From contig NZ_BDAM01000003.1 in assembly GCF_001895045.1 (NCBI RefSeq), forward strand, positions 1 through 64,000: DNA of 64,000 bases, read 5' to 3'. A model generated the notes under the pieces. The model saw nothing but the letters and a program-made list of their open reading frames with translations, ran no database searches and was not told where the DNA came from. The stretch's first letter is position 1; each line of letters starts with the position of its first letter. Source of the stretch: Rhodococcus coprophilus NBRC 100603 (GTDB taxonomy: Bacteria; Actinomycetota; Actinomycetes; Mycobacteriales; Mycobacteriaceae). This document shows, one piece after another, positions 6,027 to 40,501 of this stretch. The position numbers and the translations under genes are program-made.

Positions 6027-7463
6027 GTGGCGTTCACCACGGCCGAAGAGGTCATCAAGTACATCGCGGACGAAAACGTCGAGTACGTGGATATCCGCTT
6101 CACCGACCTGCCCGGCATCGAGCAGCACTTCTCGATCCCGGCGAAGGCGTTCAATCAGGACGTCTTCGAGGACGGCCTGGCCTTCGACGGCTCGTCCGTG
6201 CGTGGCTTCCAGTCCATCCACGAGTCGGACATGCTTTTGCTTCCGGACGTGACCACCGCGCGTATCGATCCCTTCCGTGCTGCCAAGACGCTCAACGTGA
6301 GCTTCTTCGTCCACGACCCCTTCACCCGCGAGTCGTACTCCCGCGACCCCCGCAACGTTGCGCGCAAGGCCGAGGAGTACCTGGTCAGCACCGGCATCGC
6401 CGACACCGCGTACTTCGGTGCCGAGGCCGAGTTCTACATCTTCGATTCCGTCTCCTACGACTCGAAGATGAACGGCTCGTTCTACGAGGTCGATTCGATC
6501 TCCGGCGCCTGGAACACCGGCGTGGACTACAACGCCGACGGCACCCCGAACCGCGGTTACAAGGTTCGCCCGAAGGGCGGCTACTTCCCCGTCGCTCCGT
6601 ACGACCACTACGTGGACCTGCGCGACGAGATCTCCACCAACCTGCAGCTCGCGGGCTTCGAGCTCGAGCGCGCCCACCACGAGGTCGGCACCGGCGGACA
6701 GGCCGAGATCAACTACAAGTTCAACACGCTGCTCTCGGCAGCCGACGACCTGCAGCTGTTCAAGTACATCGTCAAGAACACCGCGTGGAAGAACGGCAAG
6801 ACCGCCACCTTCATGCCGAAGCCCCTCTTCGGTGACAACGGCTCGGGCATGCACGTCCACCAGTCGCTGTGGAAGGACGGCAAGCCGCTGTTCCACGACG
6901 AGTCCGGCTACGCGGGTCTGTCCGACCTCGCCCGCTGGTACATCGGCGGCATCCTGCACCACGCGCCGTCGCTGCTCGCCTTCACCAACCCGACGATCAA
7001 CTCGTACCACCGTCTGGTTCCGGGCTACGAGGCGCCGATCAACCTCGTCTACAGCCAGCGCAACCGTTCGGCCGCGGTCCGTATCCCGATCACGGGCAAC
7101 AACCCGAAGGCCAAGCGCCTCGAGTTCCGCGCGCCCGACTCCTCGGGTAACCCGTACCTGAACTTCGCCGCGCAGATGATGGCCGGCCTGGACGGCATCA
7201 AGAAGAAGATCGAGCCGATGGCTCCGGTCGACAAGGACCTCTACGAGCTTCCTCCGGAGGAGGCCCGCAACATCCCGCAGGCTCCGACGTCGCTCAGCGC
7301 GGTCATCGACCGCCTCGAGTCCGACCACGAGTACCTCACCGAGGGTGGCGTGTTCACCACCGACCTGATCGAGACCTGGATCTCGCTCAAGCGTGAGCAG
7401 GAAATCGCTCCGGTCAACCTGCGCCCGCACCCGTACGAGTTCCAGCTGTACTTCGACTGCTGA
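6027..7463 (+). CDS. glnA1: Glutamine synthetase type I-beta, GlnA1
   Basis: This 478-residue subunit of the dodecameric enzyme makes glutamine from glutamate, ammonia and ATP. The Mg/ATP and glutamate-binding segments are present ([39 protein letters not shown]). The adenylylation loop is [15 protein letters not shown] with Tyr406, the residue number known for M. tuberculosis GlnA1. The modifying enzyme, glnE, lies 6 kb downstream. GTG start at 6027 follows GAAGGAG (6013-6019). The upstream half-site suggests GlnR regulation, and two hairpins follow the stop. A dominant housekeeping enzyme of nitrogen assimilation. Confidence 0.98.
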
Positions 7464-32769: not shown

Positions 32770-32788
32770 TTAAGGTAGCCTTACCGCA
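32770..32788. promoter_or_regulatory. IdeR/DtxR-like iron box 1
   Basis: TTAAGGTAGCCTTACCGCA matches 14 of 19 positions of the IdeR consensus TTAGGTTAGSCTAACCTAA. It lies 69 bp upstream of the substrate-binding protein start. IdeR represses iron uptake genes when iron is sufficient. Confidence 0.65.
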
Positions 32789-32789
32789 A

Positions 32790-32808
32790 TAAGGATTGCC
32801 TAACCTCT
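32790..32808. promoter_or_regulatory. IdeR/DtxR-like iron box 2
   Basis: TAAGGATTGCCTAACCTCT also matches 14 of 19 consensus positions and directly follows box 1. Tandem boxes are usual at strongly iron-regulated promoters. The start codon is 48 bp away. Confidence 0.65.
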
Positions 32809-32856
32809 TGTTCTTTGGGCAGTGCCGTGCACCCTCTCAGCAGAATGTGAACTCAG

Positions 32857-34500
32857 TTGACGCGCATACTCCGGCGTTCTCACGTCGTACCCCTGGTCCT
32901 CGCGCCGGTACTCCTCGTTGCAGCATGCGGCGGTTCGGGCGACACGACGGACTCGGCTTCGGGACCCTCGACCGCCCGATCGCTGACCGTTGCCGCCTCC
33001 AAGGACTCCGGCCCCCTCAACATCTTCGCCGGGCAGACCGACCAGATGACCGAGCTGATCTACGACAAGCTCCTGTCGCCGTCCCCGTACGTCGCCGACC
33101 CGCAGCCCTGGCTGGCCACCGATGTCCGCCAGGTCGACGCGACCACGTGGGAGGTCGACCTCCGCGACGACGTCACCTGGCACGACGGTGAGGCGTTCAC
33201 AGCGGACGACGTCGTCTTCAGCTTCCATTACATGCACGCCGCCCCCACCGGTCGATACACCCACCACGTCAACGACACACCGTCCATCTCCACGGTCGAC
33301 GCCGTGGGTGAGGACTCGGTCCGCTTCGTGTGCGACTACTCGTGCCCCGAACTGGGTCCGGTCACACTCGCAGACCTCCCGATCATTCCCGAGCACGTGT
33401 GGTCGAAGGTCGACCCTGCCGAGGCCAAGGCGGTCACCGACCTTCCGATCGGCACCGGCCCCTTCGTGCTCGTCGACTACAGCCCCACCAGCGGGTACCG
33501 CTTCGAGGCGAACGCCGACTACTTCGCAGGCACCCCGACCGTCGACGAACTCGTCATGCCGGTCATCGAGGACAACGCCGCCGCCTTCACCGCGCTCAGC
33601 TCCGGCCAGATCGACGCCGCCGACCGCGCGCTCACACCCGAACTCGTCGACCGGTTCACCGCCTCGAACGACATCGGCGTGATCACTGTCGCGCCGCTGA
33701 GCTACCCGGAACTCAAACTGAACTTCACCCGGGAACCGTTCGCACAGGCCGACTTCCGCGCGGCACTGAACCTCGCCGTTGATCGCGACGAGCTGCTCGA
33801 GGTCGTCGGACTCGGCCAGGGCCGTCCCGGCACCCAGGGCTATATCCACCCGGACGCACCGTTCGCCGACCCCGACGCTTCGACCCCCTACGACGCCGAG
33901 CAGGCCACGGCGCTGCTCGACCGCCTCGGCTGGGCCGACCGCGACGGCGACGGCACCCGGGAAAACCCTGCCGGTGAACCGGCTACCTTCACCCTGGCCG
34001 TCAACGGGGGCAACGCACCGCAGGTCCGCGCCGCCGAACTGCTCGTCGAAGACTTCGCCGAGATCGGCATCGCCGTCACCGTGACTCCGCTCGACTCCGG
34101 ATCGTTCTCCGATGCGGCGTCCAAGAAGACCTACGACATGATGGTCACCACGAACAGCCCACACGCAGTGGCCGATTCGACGCAGTTCATCATGTCGCAC
34201 CGCTCCGGCAATCTGTGGAAGCACCCCGACATCGCCTACCCGGAATTCGACGCCCTGTACGACGCGTGGAAGGTCACCGAGACCAACGACGCTCGCATCG
34301 CCGCCATGCAGGACATGCAGAAGCTGTTCAACCGCCAGCCCACCGCGATCGCGCTGTACTACCCGGACGAGTACTGGGCCTTCCGCGCCGACACGTTCGG
34401 TGGATGGATCGAAACTCCCGGTTACGGCATCGTCCACAAGTGGTCGTTCCTGCCCGCGGATGTCGTCGAGGCCGCCAACGCACAAGCGCCGCAGGACTGA
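32857..34500 (+). CDS. ABC transporter substrate-binding lipoprotein, SBP family 5
   Basis: This 547-residue extracytoplasmic binding protein has a lipobox (LLVAACGGSG, Cys24) and the family-5 (peptide/nickel/opine) signature regions: WEVDLRDDVTWHDGEAFTADDVVFSF and the later RAALNLAVDRDELL. It delivers its ligand to the permeases coded downstream. Family 5 proteins bind peptides, nickel chelates, opines or metallophores, and the sequence alone does not reveal which. Iron boxes upstream favour a metal-chelate ligand (inference). The start is TTG 32857; the ATG 12 bp upstream is followed at once by a stop. The first permease starts 3 bp after the stop. Confidence 0.9.
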   Translation: MTRILRRSHVVPLVLAPVLLVAACGGSGDTTDSASGPSTARSLTVAASKDSGPLNIFAGQTDQMTELIYDKLLSPSPYVADPQPWLATDVRQVDATTWEVDLRDDVTWHDGEAFTADDVVFSFHYMHAAPTGRYTHHVNDTPSISTVDAVGEDSVRFVCDYSCPELGPVTLADLPIIPEHVWSKVDPAEAKAVTDLPIGTGPFVLVDYSPTSGYRFEANADYFAGTPTVDELVMPVIEDNAAAFTALSSGQIDAADRALTPELVDRFTASNDIGVITVAPLSYPELKLNFTREPFAQADFRAALNLAVDRDELLEVVGLGQGRPGTQGYIHPDAPFADPDASTPYDAEQATALLDRLGWADRDGDGTRENPAGEPATFTLAVNGGNAPQVRAAELLVEDFAEIGIAVTVTPLDSGSFSDAASKKTYDMMVTTNSPHAVADSTQFIMSHRSGNLWKHPDIAYPEFDALYDAWKVTETNDARIAAMQDMQKLFNRQPTAIALYYPDEYWAFRADTFGGWIETPGYGIVHKWSFLPADVVEAANAQAPQD

Positions 34501-34503
34501 TCC

Positions 34504-35499
34504 ATGACCGTCGTGCGTCGAGCAGGGCAATACGCGCTCGTGTTGTGGGCGGCGGTGACGCTGAACTTCGCGTTGCCCTACTTGGCGCCCGGCGATCCCG
34601 TCGAATACCTCTATGGAGGCGACCAGCAGGCCCTCGATCCGAAGTACATCGCGCAGATGCGCGCCGAGTACGGACTCGACCGGCCGATCCTCGAGCAATA
34701 CCTTTCGTTCTGGTCCGGTCTGCTGCACGGAGATCTCGGAATCTCCGTGCAGCACAACCGGCCCGTGGTCGATGTCCTGTGGGACAAGCTGCCCTGGACG
34801 GTCGCGCTGGTGGGTATCGGCACTCTCCTGGCGTTCTGCATCGGAACCCTGCTCGGAGCCTGGGCGGCTTGGCGCCGCGGCACGGCCAAGGAAACCGGAA
34901 CTGTCGTCGGCGTTCTCGTTCTCGATTCCATGCCCGGTTTCTTCATCGGAATGATCCTCATCGCGGTGTTCTCCGTGACCCTGGGATGGTTCCCGTCCTA
35001 CGGGGCAGCGGCCATCACCTCCACCGGTGGGGAATGGTTGCTCGAAGTCGTCTCGCGCATGGCCCTTCCAGTCGCCACGCTCACGATCGCCGGTGTCGGC
35101 GGGTTCTTCCTCATGACCCGGGCGTCGATGGTCGGGGTGCTCGACGAGCCGTTCGTGCGCCTCGCCCGCGCGAAAGGGGCGAGCGAGTTCCGCGTCGCCG
35201 TCGGACACGCCCTGCGCAACGCCCTGTTGCCCGTCTACACCACGCTCAGCTTGACCGTCGGCGCGCTGCTATCCGGTGCGGTGGTCGTCGAGTCCGTCTT
35301 CGCCTACCCCGGGTTGGGCAAGCTCACCTTCGACGCGGTCACCGCGCGGGACTACCCGCTGCTGCAGGGCGCGTTCCTGCTCGCCACCGTCGGCATCGTC
35401 GCGGCGAACATCGTCGCCGACCTGACGTATCCCCTGCTCGACCCCCGGGTCCGCCGCGATCGGACCTCCACCACGACCCGCGAAGAGGTGACCGTGTGA
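34504..35499 (+). CDS. ABC permease, DppB type
   Basis: This 331-residue inner-membrane protein has six predicted membrane segments. Family regions are the N-terminal LAPGDPVEYLYGG after the first helix and the extracytoplasmic MRAEYGLDRPILEQYLSFW. The EAA loop that contacts the ATPase reads VRLARAKGASEFRVAVGHALRNALLP. It pairs with the DppC-type domain of the next gene to form the channel. It starts 3 bp after the binding-protein gene and overlaps the next gene by 4 bp, so the operon is tightly coupled. Confidence 0.93.
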   Translation: MTVVRRAGQYALVLWAAVTLNFALPYLAPGDPVEYLYGGDQQALDPKYIAQMRAEYGLDRPILEQYLSFWSGLLHGDLGISVQHNRPVVDVLWDKLPWTVALVGIGTLLAFCIGTLLGAWAAWRRGTAKETGTVVGVLVLDSMPGFFIGMILIAVFSVTLGWFPSYGAAAITSTGGEWLLEVVSRMALPVATLTIAGVGGFFLMTRASMVGVLDEPFVRLARAKGASEFRVAVGHALRNALLPVYTTLSLTVGALLSGAVVVESVFAYPGLGKLTFDAVTARDYPLLQGAFLLATVGIVAANIVADLTYPLLDPRVRRDRTSTTTREEVTV

Positions 35500-37184
35500 G
35501 CATCATCGGCACGAAGACACGGTCGCAACGCCTCGCGCTCGCCGGGGCTGTAATCCTCGGGATCTTGCTGGTGTGCGCACTCGCCGCACCGTGGTTGTCC
35601 CCGTTCGATCCTGCCGAGCGCGCGACACGACCGTTCGCGTCGCCGTCCTGGCAGCACTGGCTCGGCGCCGACGACGTCGGGCACGACCTGTTCTCGATGC
35701 TGCTGCACGGTGCTCGCGTCTCGCTGTTCGTCGGTGTCGTCGCCGCAAGCGTCGCCACCGCGATCGGCACGCTCGTCGGTGTCGTCGCGGGGTACGCACG
35801 TGGTGTCGTCGGCACCGTGCTCATGCGTGTGGTCGACGTCGTGCTCTCGCTCCCGGTGCTGCCGCTGACGATCGTGATCGGTGTGTTCGCCGGCCCCGGT
35901 CTGCGCACCCAGATCCTGGTCATCTCCGCCGTCCTCTGGGCAGGCATGGCCCGTGAACTGCGCGCGCAGGTACTGACCCTGCGCGAACGCGACCACATCC
36001 AGGCCGAGCGCGCGATGGGAGCGAGCTCGATCCATGTGCTGCGCCGCCACATCGCACCCGCGATGCTCCCCCTCGTCGTCCCGCAATTCGTCCTCACCGT
36101 CAAGACCGCGATCCTCCTCGAAGCATCTCTGTCGTTCCTCGGCCTCGGCGACATCTCGGCGGCCAGCTGGGGGTCGATGCTGTCGATGGCACACGCGCGC
36201 AATGCGTTCCTCACCGATGCGTGGCTGTGGTGGGTCCTTCCGCCCGGCATCGCGATCGCCGTCACGGTGCTCGGGTTCGCTTTGCTCGGCAACGCGATCG
36301 AAGAGCGATCCCGACCGATTCTTCTGCCGCGCACACTTTCTCGCCGGACGCGTCTGCGCACCAACTCCGAAACGGTGACCGGCGACGTGCAGCACCCCCT
36401 GGTGATCGACGATCTCACCGTCCGCTATGGCACGGACGGACGCGGAGCGACCGGCGTGTCTTTCTCGGTCGCACCGGGCGAACTCGTCGGACTGGTCGGG
36501 GAATCGGGCAGCGGCAAGTCCACCGTCGCCGCTGCCGCAGTGGGTTTGCTGCCGCCCGCGGCGCAGATCGCGTCCGGACGCGTGATGGTGTCCGGCCGGG
36601 ACGTCGCGGCCATGACGCCGGCGGAACTGCGCGCCATGCGCGGCAACCGCATCGCTCTCGTTCCGCAGGAGGCTCTCAGCGCACTGAACCCGGTGATGAC
36701 CATCGGCTCCCAACTGGACGAAGCCGTCAGAGCGCACCGTTCCTGCAGCCGTGCCGACGCGCGGGCACGCACGCTCGACCTGCTGGCCCAGGTGGATCTC
36801 GGTGCCGATCGGGCCGACGCCTACCCGCACCAACTGTCCGGCGGTATGCGCCAGCGTGTCGTCATCGCGATGGCATTGGCGAACGATCCGGACGTTCTGA
36901 TCGCCGACGAGCCCACCAGCGGTCTCGACGTGCTCCGCGAAGCCGAAGTGCTCGCACTGCTCGACGACCTGCGGACCCGTTATTCGCTCGCACTGCTGGT
37001 CGTCACCCACAACCTCCCGGTCATCGAGCGGATCGCCGACCGTATCGCGGTGATGAAGGACGGAGAATTGGTGGAGATCGGCCCGGTCACGCAGATCACC
37101 GGAGCACCCGAGCATCCCTACACCCGCCACCTCGTCGAGTCCGCTCCGAGGCTCCGGCCCGCGCTGCTCGAGGTCGCACGGTGA
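35496..37184 (+). CDS. Fused ABC permease (DppC type) and ATPase (DppD type)
   Basis: One uninterrupted 562-residue frame joins two proteins that are normally separate. Residues 1-280 form the DppC permease, with [24 protein letters not shown] and the EAA loop [24 protein letters not shown]. After a short basic linker (about 281-300) comes a complete ATPase: Walker [11 protein letters not shown]-loop [11 protein letters not shown], signature LSGGMRQR, Walker B VLIADEPT and the His switch VVTHN. A GTG start overlaps the upstream permease stop. The fusion would fix one ATPase per channel half. No frameshift is needed to read it through. Confidence 0.92.
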
Positions 37185-37942
37185 ACCCGCTGCTCGACAT
37201 CCGTTCGCTGTCGGTTGCGTTCGACGGTGTGCCCGCAGTGTCGGACGTGTCCCTGCGGGTCGAGGCAGGCGAATCCATCGCGCTGGTGGGCGGTTCCGGT
37301 GCCGGTAAGTCCACGGTGGCGCGGGCGGTGGCCGGGCTGGTCACCCCGACAGCCGGCAGCATCGTATTCGACGGTATCGACGTGACGACTGCTCGCGGAC
37401 GGCAACGGCGCCAGGTCCGCCGCGACATGCACATGGTCTTCCAGGACCCGTACGCGTCGCTGCCACCCGGACTGCGGGTGCGGGACATCGTCGCCGAACC
37501 CATGGTGATCCACGGACTCGGTGACCGTGCCGAGCGACGAGATGCGACAGTCGCTGCTCTCGACGCCGTGCACCTGACTCCCACGGACCGGTACCTGGAC
37601 CGATTTCCTCACGAGTTGTCCGGTGGCCAGCGCCAGCGAGTGGCCTTCGCGCGGGCGCTGGTGACGCGTCCGCGCCTCTTGCTCGCCGACGAACCGACCA
37701 GCGGCCTCGACGCGTCGCTCCGCATCGGGATCGTCGACCTGATGACCGAACTCGCCGGCACCGCACATCTCGCGGTCGTGCACATCACGCACGATCTGGC
37801 TCTCGCAGAGCGGAGTTGCGAGAACATCGCCGTGATGCAGGCCGGACGCATCGTGGAAACAGGTTGTGCGAAAGAGGTTCTCGCACGTCCCCGCCACGCC
37901 TACACCGCAGCGCTTGTCGCGGCGGCGTCCGGCGCCCACTGA
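37181..37942 (+). CDS. ABC transporter ATPase (DppF type)
   Basis: This 253-residue cytoplasmic ATPase has Walker A GGSGAGKST, Q-loop VFQDPYASLPPG, signature LSGGQRQRVAFARAL, Walker [13 protein letters not shown] and the switch histidine in HITHD. It pairs with the ATPase domain of the fusion protein to make the asymmetric nucleotide-binding dimer. It is short for DppF and lacks the C-terminal peptide-importer zinc/Fe-S-like extension. The GTG start overlaps the stop of the fusion gene (GTGA). Confidence 0.92.
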   Translation: MNPLLDIRSLSVAFDGVPAVSDVSLRVEAGESIALVGGSGAGKSTVARAVAGLVTPTAGSIVFDGIDVTTARGRQRRQVRRDMHMVFQDPYASLPPGLRVRDIVAEPMVIHGLGDRAERRDATVAALDAVHLTPTDRYLDRFPHELSGGQRQRVAFARALVTRPRLLLADEPTSGLDASLRIGIVDLMTELAGTAHLAVVHITHDLALAERSCENIAVMQAGRIVETGCAKEVLARPRHAYTAALVAAASGAH

Positions 37943-37980
37943 CCGAACACGGAAACAGTTGTAATACAGGAGGATCGATC

Positions 37981-38487
37981 ATGTCTGCACTGCTCGAGGT
38001 CGTCGACAACGGAACCGTCATCGGTTTCGACATCGACGACATCATGAAGTACCACGGCCCCGGGTTTCCCGGTGGCGTCGCGCACGCCGTCAAGGTGCTC
38101 GAACGTGCCCTGCCGGTCCTGAGCCCCGATGCACCGGCCGAGCGCCGGGACATCTCGGCGGTCACCGCCCACCGCGGGCCGGGGGTCCGCGACACGTTCG
38201 AGGCCGTCACCCGTGGCGTCACGGAAGGTCGCTTCACCGTCGACTCGGCCCTGGAACGCCCCGAGCGAGGAGAGACGCTCGAGCGGTACGTATTCGAACT
38301 CACCTATCGGGGAAAGACGGTCAGGCTCGAGATCCGCGAAGGGTTCGTCACCGACGAATTCATCGCCCTCGGCCGCAAAGCCGATCGCACCGAGGACGAG
38401 GACGAGCGGCTGACCGCCCTCAAGCAGGAAATGGCGGATCGGCTCCTCGCTGCTCCGGCCACCGAGGTCTACGACATCGTCGGCTAG
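37981..38487 (+). CDS. Conserved protein of unknown function in the importer operon
   Basis: This 168-residue soluble protein starts at ATG 37981 behind CAGGAGG. The segments DDIMKYHGPGFPGGVAHAVKV and VTAHRGPGVRDTFEAVTRG recall the layout of FmdE-like domains (a histidine-glycine motif, then a Gly-rich loop before a helix). The usual FmdE cysteines are absent, so this is only a loose resemblance. It has no signal peptide and no cysteine at all. Being 38 bp after the second ATPase, it is likely in the same iron-regulated transcript and may process the imported ligand; that is inference. Confidence 0.75.
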   Translation: MSALLEVVDNGTVIGFDIDDIMKYHGPGFPGGVAHAVKVLERALPVLSPDAPAERRDISAVTAHRGPGVRDTFEAVTRGVTEGRFTVDSALERPERGETLERYVFELTYRGKTVRLEIREGFVTDEFIALGRKADRTEDEDERLTALKQEMADRLLAAPATEVYDIVG

Positions 38488-38502
38488 CCGTAGGGTGCCT
38501 CC

Positions 38503-38913
38503 ATGCCGAGTCCCGCACGCACCGCCCTCGTTCTGCTCGCCGTTGCTGCGACGACGGTCGTCGCCTGGTTCGGGTGGCTCGGGTGGGAGGCGGGGTACCG
38601 GACGCTGCCGGACGGCACGGTCACGGGTCCGTATTCGACGGTGCAAGTCGTCGGCTGCGCCGTGACGATCGCCGGCATCGTCGTCGCGGGATGTCTCACA
38701 CTGCGTTGCGCGGCGCGCACAAGCGCAGCCGTGATCGCCTGTGCGACCGTCTCCTTCGCGGCGGTATGGGCACGGGATGCGGCGTCCCGGGACGAGACCG
38801 GATTGTGGGCAGTAGGGCTGGTCTTCCTGGTGGTCGGCGCGGTTGCCGGGTTGGCCGTCGTCGCGGTACTGACCCGGCTCGTGCGGGACGCGGTCCTCCG
38901 TCGACGCGCCTGA
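38503..38913 (+). CDS. Small four-helix membrane protein
   Basis: This 136-residue protein has four hydrophobic segments (about residues 6-26, 45-67, 72-90 and 99-124) and a basic C terminus (RDAVLRRRA), which suggests an inside location for both ends. It starts 16 bp after the preceding gene and probably ends the importer operon. It resembles no named family that I recognise. It could be a membrane partner of the importer or an unrelated passenger. A strong hairpin lies 147 bp downstream. Confidence 0.7.
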   Translation: MPSPARTALVLLAVAATTVVAWFGWLGWEAGYRTLPDGTVTGPYSTVQVVGCAVTIAGIVVAGCLTLRCAARTSAAVIACATVSFAAVWARDAASRDETGLWAVGLVFLVVGAVAGLAVVAVLTRLVRDAVLRRRA

Positions 38914-39059
38914 GCGACGACAAGCCCAACCGACATGTCGGCGGTCACTGCTGCTTTTCGATCATGGGTGACAGGCGCAGGGACCACAGGAACGGAATGG
39001 GCCACGGGCACGCCAATGCGATTGTGGCTCACACCCTGAAGGAAGACGCCGCGAGCTGA

Positions 39060-39091
39060 GCCCGGCGCGTGGCAACATTCACGCGCCGGGC
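39060..39091. terminator. Hairpin between convergent operons
   Basis: A perfect 12-bp GC stem (39060-39071 with 39080-39091) has an 8-nt loop. It lies between the importer operon and the convergent ThuA-like pair. The 146 bp before it (38914-39059) contain no supported gene. Confidence 0.75.
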
Positions 39092-39115
39092 CGCTACGGT
39101 GCGGAACGCACTCCG

Positions 39116-39790
39116 TCAGGTGTTGTCTATCCAGCGCAGCAGCGCATACAGGAAGCGGGTCGCTCCCGGCATGAAGTTGCTGCCGTGGTGGTACATCGGG
39201 TCCAGTGTGGTCGCGATGATCCGTCCGGGGGTGGTGACGGTGTCCTCGTACAGCATCATGCCGGCGTCGCGCGGAACACCTTCGGAGTCAGGCTCTTCCG
39301 ACACCAGCAGAGGCACTACGTCGGCGTCGATGTTGTAGATGCCGTGGTGGTGCCAGATCACGGCCTTCGTGGTGAGGTACTGCCAGGATTCGTGGTCGTG
39401 GCTGCGGGTCCGGATCATCGGATCCTCCTTGGTGAGCCACCACCAGAAGTTCGTCGGTCGCGGTTCCCACGTGACGCCGGGAAGCCAGGTGTGGGCGCCG
39501 CTTTCGCCAAGCGCGACCACGGTGCCACCACGCTGGGCGACGGAGTAGAACTGCGCCGCATTCTTGGCAACCAGGTCGGGGTGCAGGCGGTCGCCGACGA
39601 TGACGGTGTCGTACCCGTCCAGGTCGCCGGGCAGCAGGTCCGGTAGGTAGAGAAAGTCCGGCTGGTGGGCGAGGACCGCCGGGTCCTTCATCATCTGGAG
39701 GTGAAAGTACGTGCCGCCGTGGACGATGGCGAGCGTGCGAGCGCGCTTGGGTGCGCGGTCTGAACGGGTGAACGGTTCGACGATCGTCAT
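39116..39790 (-). CDS. ThuA/GATase1-like protein, second of a pair
   Basis: This 224-residue soluble protein has a flavodoxin-like class I glutamine amidotransferase (ThuA-type) pattern: strand TLAIVHGGTYFHLQ, then DLDGYDTVIVGDRLHPDLV, then RGGTVVALGESGAHTWLPGV. The nucleophile-elbow position lacks cysteine (ALGESG), so it is not a normal amidotransferase. It has a striking IWHHHGIYNID segment and YHHGSNF near the C terminus, histidines that could bind metal. Start ATG 39790 overlaps the stop of the upstream partner (ATGA). It shares the iron box at 40483 with that gene. Function unknown. Confidence 0.75.
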   Translation of the reverse strand: MTIVEPFTRSDRAPKRARTLAIVHGGTYFHLQMMKDPAVLAHQPDFLYLPDLLPGDLDGYDTVIVGDRLHPDLVAKNAAQFYSVAQRGGTVVALGESGAHTWLPGVTWEPRPTNFWWWLTKEDPMIRTRSHDHESWQYLTTKAVIWHHHGIYNIDADVVPLLVSEEPDSEGVPRDAGMMLYEDTVTTPGRIIATTLDPMYHHGSNFMPGATRFLYALLRWIDNT

Positions 39791-40473
39791 CGCTGCACCA
39801 ACCAATCGACGAGCTGGACGGCCAGCAACGAGGAAGTATTCGGATCGTTTTTCCAGCCGAGGAGATCGTTGCCGCCGTGGGCGAGCACCTGGCCTTCTCC
39901 GAGCGGGTAGACGTAGTCGAACGGAAGAGCGTGTCGCCCGATGCGGGTCGTCACGATGGCATCTTCCGGGATCTTGTCGATGTATCCACGGCCGTAGAAG
40001 CCCGTGACACCCTTGCGGGTGCTCAGGTCGACCGGTTCGACGCCCTCCCACACCGGATGCGGGTCACCGAGGGTGATCGCCAGGTCCTTGGGTCCGGTGT
40101 AGGCGAGCTTGCGCCATACGCCAAGTCCCGGAAGGAAATCTGTGAGCACGTGGCCCATCACCGCGATCCGTCCGCCGGAGGTGACGAACTCGGTGAGCAG
40201 ATCTTTGTTGCGCTCGAGGAAGATCTGGTCGGCGCCGCCGCCGATAATGAGTCCGCGGATCGCGGAGAGGTCCGTGTCGGGAAGACGGTAGATGTCGACA
40301 CGTGCGAGGCGCGGATCTTCGGTGGGCCCCTCGGCGCCCATGGTGACGTGCAGAGCGGGAGCGACGACCGAGGGCAGCCCACCGTCGCGGGGGGTAGGCA
40401 TGGAAACTAGAGAGGGGTCTGGTGCTGGCACAGGACTCTTCCGGTTCGGAGAGCGCGGGACGCTCGTCAGCAT
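39787..40473 (-). CDS. ThuA/GATase1-like protein, first of a pair
   Basis: This 228-residue protein has the same fold pattern: IRGLIIGGGADQIFLERNKDLL, then VTSGGRIAVMGHVLTDFLPG and a C-terminal GEGQVLAHGGNDLLGW. The elbow reads VMGHV, without cysteine, so it too is probably not a glutaminase. The N-terminal 24 residues are low in order; ATG 40401 is an alternative start that removes them. An IdeR-like box lies 10 bp upstream of ATG 40473, close enough to suggest a short-leader or leaderless transcript. Such paired proteins may form a heterodimer (inference). Confidence 0.75.
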   Translation of the reverse strand: MLTSVPRSPNRKSPVPAPDPSLVSMPTPRDGGLPSVVAPALHVTMGAEGPTEDPRLARVDIYRLPDTDLSAIRGLIIGGGADQIFLERNKDLLTEFVTSGGRIAVMGHVLTDFLPGLGVWRKLAYTGPKDLAITLGDPHPVWEGVEPVDLSTRKGVTGFYGRGYIDKIPEDAIVTTRIGRHALPFDYVYPLGEGQVLAHGGNDLLGWKNDPNTSSLLAVQLVDWLVQR

Positions 40474-40482
40474 AGTCAGGAC

Positions 40483-40501
40483 TAAGGTTAGGCTTTCATA
40501 A
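40483..40501. promoter_or_regulatory. IdeR/DtxR-like iron box 3
   Basis: TAAGGTTAGGCTTTCATAA (plus strand) matches 14 of 19 positions of TTAGGTTAGSCTAACCTAA, with the left half nearly perfect. It lies directly upstream of the ThuA-like pair, in its promoter. Confidence 0.65.

Follow-up and report, generated by a model that had tools for sequence, protein, structure and literature searches.

Release of iron in the cytosol from imported ferric chelates is known for few protein families. Fes/IroE esterases and FhuF/SIP reductases do this job after import; it is the job that we propose here for proteins of other families, set apart from those enzymes by name only. On the import side, the closest described systems are the FecB/FecCD ferric-siderophore importers and two importers with a family-5 substrate-binding protein (SBP), the staphylopine system CntABCDF and NikABCDE. 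Here we analyze a locus in a 64,000-nucleotide stretch, the window, of Rhodococcus coprophilus NBRC 100603 (contig NZ_BDAM01000003.1, positions 1 to 64,000), in which a family-5 ATP-binding cassette (ABC) importer faces a pair of genes, P0008 and P0007, with IdeR/DtxR-like iron boxes around both. We use the working names thuA for P0008 and thuB for P0007, and call thuA, thuB and P0005, a gene of the importer unit, the trio. We consider it probable that the locus encodes an iron-regulated importer of a ferric chelate, together with a conserved cytosolic module that acts on the chelate once imported. The parts belong to known families or are distantly related to them. In the literature, judged on titles and abstract openings with most subscription journals outside the coverage, we recognized no description of the trio module, and we know of no siderophore system in which it is a named part.

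The window holds two convergent units with eight genes in all, P0001 to P0006 on the plus strand and P0008 followed by P0007 on the minus strand; an earlier note on this DNA had counted seven. P0001 (32857..34500, +) is an SBP family 5 lipoprotein (PF00496, 258.9 bits against a cut-off of 32.4) with a lipobox-like LLVAACGG read by eye. It is followed by an OppB/NikB-like permease, P0002 (34504..35499, +; BPD_transp_1, 123 bits), a permease-ATPase fusion, P0003 (35496..37184, +; an open reading frame [ORF] of 562 amino acids; BPD_transp_1, 83.7 bits, and ABC_tran, 103.8 bits), and a second ATPase, P0004 (37181..37942, +; ABC_tran, 121.9 bits). SBP_bac_5, permease and ATPase domains thus stand in contiguous genes of one unit and make up a family-5 ABC importer, as the earlier note had said. 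P0005 (37981..38487, +) lies behind them. On the other strand, thuA (39787..40473, −) and thuB (39116..39790, −) have ORFs that overlap by 4 nt. Like CntABCDF and NikABCDE, the importer has a family-5 SBP, two permease domains and two ATPase domains. However, P0001 scores far below the cut-offs of those families, with 92.6 bits against the curated NCBIfam cut-off of 800 for CntA, which places it outside Cnt, and 136.7 against 393 for NikA. Also unlike Cnt, no opine synthesis genes were recognized in the window gene list, and the window has iron boxes. Among solved structures, P0001 comes closest to AppA, which binds oligopeptides. FecB/FecCD importers resemble the locus in their iron-box control; they are the commonest partner of the thuA-thuB pair in its relatives and are accompanied by TonB receptors in several proteobacteria, but the importer of the window belongs to family 5. 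A possible relative of the FecB type is iupABC of Rhodococcus equi.

We scored boxes on both strands as matches out of 19 to the DtxR/IdeR consensus, which we take to be TTAGGTTAGGCTAACCTAA. Only three sites in the window score at least 13/19, at 32770, 32790 and 40483; four other listed places score 12. Boxes 1 (32770..32788) and 2 (32790..32808) each score 13/19 on the plus and 14/19 on the minus strand and lie about 50 to 90 bp before the SBP start, box 2 being the nearer at about 50 bp. Box 3 (40483..40501; 15/19 on the plus and 14/19 on the minus strand) lies upstream of thuA. The start of this gene is probably 40401 rather than 40473, since the gene caller and the relatives begin inside the longest ORF, and this puts the box about 82 bp upstream. 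A search of the window for the full consensus with up to three mismatches gave no match, and no site reaches 16/19; none of the three boxes is therefore near-perfect. Across the whole genome, a shorter degenerate pattern occurred 6 times against 5 for its reversed control, which is not above background. Because single sites are imperfect and the genome-wide pattern is null, the box evidence rests on the cluster of three and on the relatives. With a 19-bp palindromic box in the promoter, both units are, at the level of sequence, candidate members of an IdeR/DtxR regulon, and the iron-boxed locus that the earlier note had proposed is real.

The trio and the importer keep company in other genomes. 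We searched a close-relative set of 61 genomes, our own and 60 relatives, and found matches to P0005 in 17, to P0008 in 15 and to P0007 in 16; the P0005 match in G056 and the P0007 match in G055 (E ~1e-3) are probably noise. All 15 genomes with P0008 also hold P0007 and P0005. One genome, G032, has P0005 without the pair, and another, G057, has a second P0005 copy away from it. The nearest named relative at the locus, Rhodococcus sp. 105337, has a thuB that is 95% identical. An SBP of the P0001 type (E ≤ 1e-60) occurs in 10 of the 61 genomes, all ten of which have the trio (hypergeometric 3e-8, uncorrected for kinship). The five other trio genomes have a different importer beside it. By Pfam, the order in G004 (L052) is Peripla_BP_2, FecCD, ABC_tran, thuA, thuB and P0005, and it is the same in the named copy of G008 (L115); G006 and G017 share the ATPase-thuA-thuB-P0005 order, and G026 has a Peripla_BP_2-permease-ATPase-thuA-thuB run with P0005 about 6 kb off.

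We then scanned one genome per species, 84,980 species in all, with the thuB alignment and obtained 199 relatives among 266 candidate stretches. The gene is rare and patchy, since only 3 of 396 evenly drawn Actinomycetota genomes carry it, our own included. Locus counts were made over the best 80 of the 199 thuB loci, a set biased to close relatives and including near-duplicates, which come from Actinomycetota, Chloroflexota, Alphaproteobacteria and one Methylobacter bin. Of these 80 loci, 79 have thuA next to thuB and 78 have an importer no more than 7 kb away; P0005-type genes are found at that range in 40. The co-occurrence that had been proposed as a check is thus seen both here and among the close relatives. 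The two loci without an importer in range are L100, with a family-5 importer about 7 to 10 kb away, and L136, with none within the 14.5 kb examined (3.9 kb of it upstream). The importer is FecB/FecCD in 57 loci, family 5 in 9, NMT1/TauT-type in 8 and partial or mixed in 4. From the 9 FecCD matches (8 over the cut-off) and 11 SBP5 matches in our own 4.5-Mb genome, we estimate that chance would link an importer to about 5% of loci, the TauT type excluded. The pair also goes with importers outside family 5. A tree of 69 thuB rows (64 of alignment A4 and five additions) cannot account for the importer types with fewer than 8 changes; for the Fec label, the starred branches alone demand 5 or more, and several long branches are uncertain. 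The trio is portable: as a module, it has been combined anew with importers of several unrelated kinds.

The genes are also tightly coupled. No gap separates thuA from thuB in 64 of 69 loci, or the ATPase gene from thuA in 31 of 42 (gaps of zero or less). A fused thuA-thuB ORF occurs in 7 of the 80 loci and also in L056 and L058. Elsewhere in the phylum, in G086 (L169), the pair sits within the importer run itself, in the order SBP5-thuA-thuB-OppB-OppC/ATPase. Beyond Actinomycetota, in Methylocystis, a HemP gene and two TonB receptors surround the run FecB-FecCD-ATPase-thuA-thuB-fmdE. In Rhizobium etli, a deposited "iron-siderophore ABC transporter" adjoins genes named "hypothetical protein" with matches to thuA and thuB, and one gene of the Methylobacter locus reads by eye as bacterioferritin. 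FecB/FecCD importers and TonB receptors beside the pair support an iron chelate as the cargo.

Iron boxes accompany the module in its relatives. For 55 actinobacterial loci we compared 75 unit-head promoters with 421 control promoters. Boxes of at least 14/19 were found in 47 of the 75 heads versus none of the controls, and boxes of at least 13/19 in 53 versus 2; of the 54 loci in which a head was scored, 44 reach 14/19 or better in at least one. Several of the 22 low-scoring heads start inside a run and may be gene-caller artifacts, and some are real shortfalls, for example the FecB heads of L087, L093 and L098. Outside the Actinomycetota, IdeR boxes of at least 14/19 were found in 2 of 32 heads versus 0 of 172 controls. 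Fur-box matches appear there in several loci. Paenibacillus cellulosilyticus has the order fmdE-thuA-thuB-SBP5-OppB-OppC-ATPases, with Fur-box matches of 18/19 at 6790 and 16/19 at 6827 directly before the fmdE match at 6866; the best score in 20 shuffles of this locus was 14. In Cupriavidus, the match GCAAATGATAATCATTTGC (15/19; shuffles up to 13) precedes a TonB receptor-like gene-FecB-FecCD-ATPase-thuA-thuB run. The Methylobacter locus (L135) has a 16/19 match at 1432, upstream of an ExbB/ExbD-TonB receptor-importer stretch, about 1.5 kb from it and possibly with a gene between. A 14/19 match lies between the thu fusion and FecB in Labrenzia (L198; shuffles reach 13), and a 13/19 match, without shuffle control, lies between divergent units in Rhizobium etli (L197). 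A RirA-like TGA-N9-TCA was found in 4 of 36 alphaproteobacterial heads versus 6 of 154 controls.

The proteins of the pair are paralogues, their families aligning with each other in hhalign (alignments A4 and A6) at Prob 97.7 and E 2e-12. From sequence or model, P0007 has a class-I glutamine amidotransferase (GATase)/ThuA-like fold. The description of the pair as ThuA-like in the earlier note therefore stands for P0007 at the level of the fold but not by sequence: in Pfam, P0007 has nothing better than a chance match (E 0.19), P0008 has none, and both fall below membership of PF06283 (ThuA), which has no match in our own genome. Only 1 of 64 thuB members matched PF06283 (E 5e-4), and ThuA was not among the families matched by the 47 thuA members at E ≤ 0.1. 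Against canonical ThuA, hhalign gave a weak link for thuB (Prob 20 local, 78 global) and none for thuA (Prob 3.6 local, 0.07 global). Searches of solved-structure sequences with alignments A1, A2 and A3 found no credible relative. P0007 and P0008 contain no cysteine at all, in agreement with the earlier reading that the usual cysteine is missing, and the best cysteine column holds 7 of 64 thuB and 14 of 47 thuA sequences. The conserved nucleophilic cysteine of class-I glutamine amidotransferases is thus absent from these families, which also differ from ThuA and class-I GATase-like proteins in occurring as a pair. The invariant residues of thuB are rich in tryptophan and histidine.

P0005, previously a protein of unknown role, can now be placed by profile comparison as a divergent, remote relative of the FmdE superfamily. 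Its family aligned with 11 canonical FmdE sequences over 131 columns (hhalign Prob 95.9, E 6e-9), and alignment A5 of the same family gave Prob 0.1 each against canonical ThuA and the NMT1 profile. The likeness to FmdE (PF02663) is domain-wide, but Pfam gives P0005 13.5 bits, below the cut-off of 22.9, and matched 10 of 40 family members at E ≤ 0.1 (best 0.0026). The signature differs as well: in place of FHGHxCPG with its cysteine, P0005 has YHGPxxPGG, and no cysteine is conserved in the family (best column 10 of 40), with arginine, aspartate and glutamate conserved instead.

These results suggest how the locus may work. When iron is scarce, an IdeR/DtxR-type repressor would leave the boxes and both units would be made, judging by where the boxes lie. 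The family-5 lipoprotein would bind an iron chelate outside, and the permeases and ATPases would import it, as expected from their families. In the cytosol, thuA-thuB and P0005 would release the iron or degrade the carrier. The two Thu proteins probably form a heterodimer, as their fusion in some species suggests. Because no catalytic cysteine is kept, opening of the chelate by hydrolysis or metal exchange at thuB residues lined with His, Asp and Trp seems to us likelier than amidotransfer or thiol chemistry; complex formation, ligand and chemistry are what we infer here. That the trio has been re-paired repeatedly with unrelated importers, with the iron boxes kept in the lineages where they are readable, is our main argument that it follows the cargo and not the transporter. 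The metallophore uptake and processing suggested in the earlier note is thus supported in part, by the co-occurrence, by the boxes as a sign of iron control and by the pairing with FecB/FecCD and TonB receptors as a sign of an iron chelate; the ligand itself and an action of the soluble proteins on it belong to what is proposed.

Several findings weigh against this reading. The counts over 80 loci are not independent, since the set was taken from the top of the 199 and contains close relatives. Two Chloroflexales loci reach at most 11/19 for the IdeR box, and the Methylocystis locus has no Fur-box match of 13 or better. In alphaproteobacteria, a putative Irr half-site, TTAGAA, occurs in 9 of 36 heads versus 3 of 154 controls, but these heads have a higher AT content and, among five scrambled versions of the hexamer, one shows clear enrichment too (4 of 36 versus 2 of 154). 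Bradyrhizobium copies adjoin a nitrile hydratase gene whose alpha subunit has VCTLCSC, which we take to be the motif of the cobalt type, and L100 contains a CooC-like gene (by eye); these neighbors suggest cobalt or nickel for some copies. The matches of the Bradyrhizobium TonB receptor mix haem, siderophore, copper and B12 receptors. P0005 may serve some other function, because half of the 80 loci lack such a gene within 7 kb and copies occur without a nearby importer in G438, G160, G200 and G295. The G438 copy (L162, 8576-11231) overlaps panB (by eye) by 4 nt and is followed by panC, with no importer nearby; its role may lie apart from iron. In G032 (L060, 9391-19901), a P0005-type gene occurs without the pair, and a few genes away we read, by eye, one gene for a lysine N-hydroxylase and one for a peptide synthetase.

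Could the ligand be haem or another iron tetrapyrrole that the trio handles or opens? We find this improbable, although it fares best among the alternatives. The HemP gene of Methylocystis, haem-uptake-like genes (by eye) about 2 kb away in Chelatococcus composti, and the Trp/His-rich invariant residues of thuB would all fit, as would the best solved relatives of the Bradyrhizobium receptor, which are PhuR and then the colicin I receptor and ShuA. However, no haem oxygenase gene was recognized inside the units in the gene lists examined, the importers are mostly of the FecB/FecCD, family-5 or TauT type, and the receptor matches are as mixed as noted above. It is unlikely to a greater degree that the imported chelate carries cobalt or nickel and that the iron boxes reflect cross-control. 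The nitrile hydratase genes, the CooC-like gene and the resemblance of the SBP to NikA, among others, speak for such a cargo. IdeR boxes in 47 of 75 unit promoters and the Fur-box matches in Paenibacillus and Cupriavidus speak for iron, the NikA models score far under their cut-offs, and an Rfam search of 14 of the 80 loci at gathering score found only tRNAs and no cobalamin riboswitch. We give equally little credence to metallophore synthesis, in place of processing, as the role of the GATase-like pair and the FmdE-like protein. They are cytosolic proteins under the same boxes, the pair has its own promoter in the window, and the G032 gene lies in a setting of siderophore-synthesis-like genes as described; yet no synthetase or exporter gene was recognized beside the pair in the gene lists examined, and the pair often follows directly on the importer ATPase, with the overlaps or zero gaps given above. 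Finally, the importer might carry peptides or sugars in the ordinary way, with ThuA-type sugar enzymes beside it and boxes that are incidental. AppA as best solved relative and the ThuA family name could be cited for this reading, which is very unlikely given that the pair also stands behind FecB/FecCD importers and TonB receptors, that iron boxes are far above controls, and that the genome has no PF06283 match.

If the locus is an importer of a ferric chelate with a module that acts on it, an iron-boxed module that seems to follow its cargo points to a shared step after import. Many FecB, family-5 and TauT-type importers that lack an assignment could then be labeled iron importers by their module neighbors. 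We also entertain, tentatively and with somewhat more doubt than belief, a wider proposal: thuA-thuB, with or without the FmdE-like protein, may be a third general machinery for cytosolic iron release beside esterases and reductases. It would be a cysteine-free heterodimer of GATase fold that opens a class of ferric chelates, works with several unrelated importers, and ranges over Actinomycetota, Chloroflexota, Pseudomonadota and Bacillota under each host's iron repressor.

Two neighboring genes were considered as further parts of the module and rejected. P0006 (38503..38913, +) does encode the small membrane protein reported before, of 136 amino acids, but it is not a conserved part; it was found in 4 of 9 other relatives with a family-5 importer and has no Pfam match. 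The TetR gene P0009 was found in none of the 16 stretches searched. Permease-ATPase fusions of family-5 importers also occur in L169 (10128-12593, 821 amino acids) and L100 (2691-5252, 853 amino acids); both ORFs match permease and ATPase profiles, and their length allows a second ATPase domain. In Rhodococcus sp. ARC_M6 (L073, 6075-15909), two versions of the module face each other, one of FecB type with thuA-thuB, the other of family-5 type, in which thuA-thuB is fused, fmdE is present twice and a further thuA is found.

The module is also found on plasmids, where thuB matched 30 of 72,556 records, including Rhizobium, Methylocystis, Cupriavidus and Paenibacillus. Two of the plasmid records with a match are from Natribaculum, which we take to be an archaeon. 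The Labrenzia plasmid pTHAF187b_d (L198; 22.7 kb, typed as conjugative) holds a fused thuA-thuB, FecB-FecCD-ATPase and fmdE; phnG and phnH come next. Genes for the trio proteins are annotated as hypothetical in the plasmid records that we viewed. The surroundings of some other copies are worth recording as well. The haem-uptake-like locus of Chelatococcus composti (L112, 1-5121, by eye), near a TauT-type importer with thuA-thuB, comprises FecB- and FecCD-like genes, a small HemP-like gene, a TonB receptor-like gene and a small monooxygenase-like gene. In Bradyrhizobium (L128, 7024-8680), nitrile hydratase alpha, beta and activator genes (by eye) lie beside fmdE-thuA-thuB, and the third gene of this set, the activator, is also present in L125, L133 and L140. 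In Rhodoplanes tepidamans (L132, 16390-19737), three nitrogenase-like genes (nifH-, nifD- and nifK-like, by eye) come directly after the module's TonB receptor-like gene.

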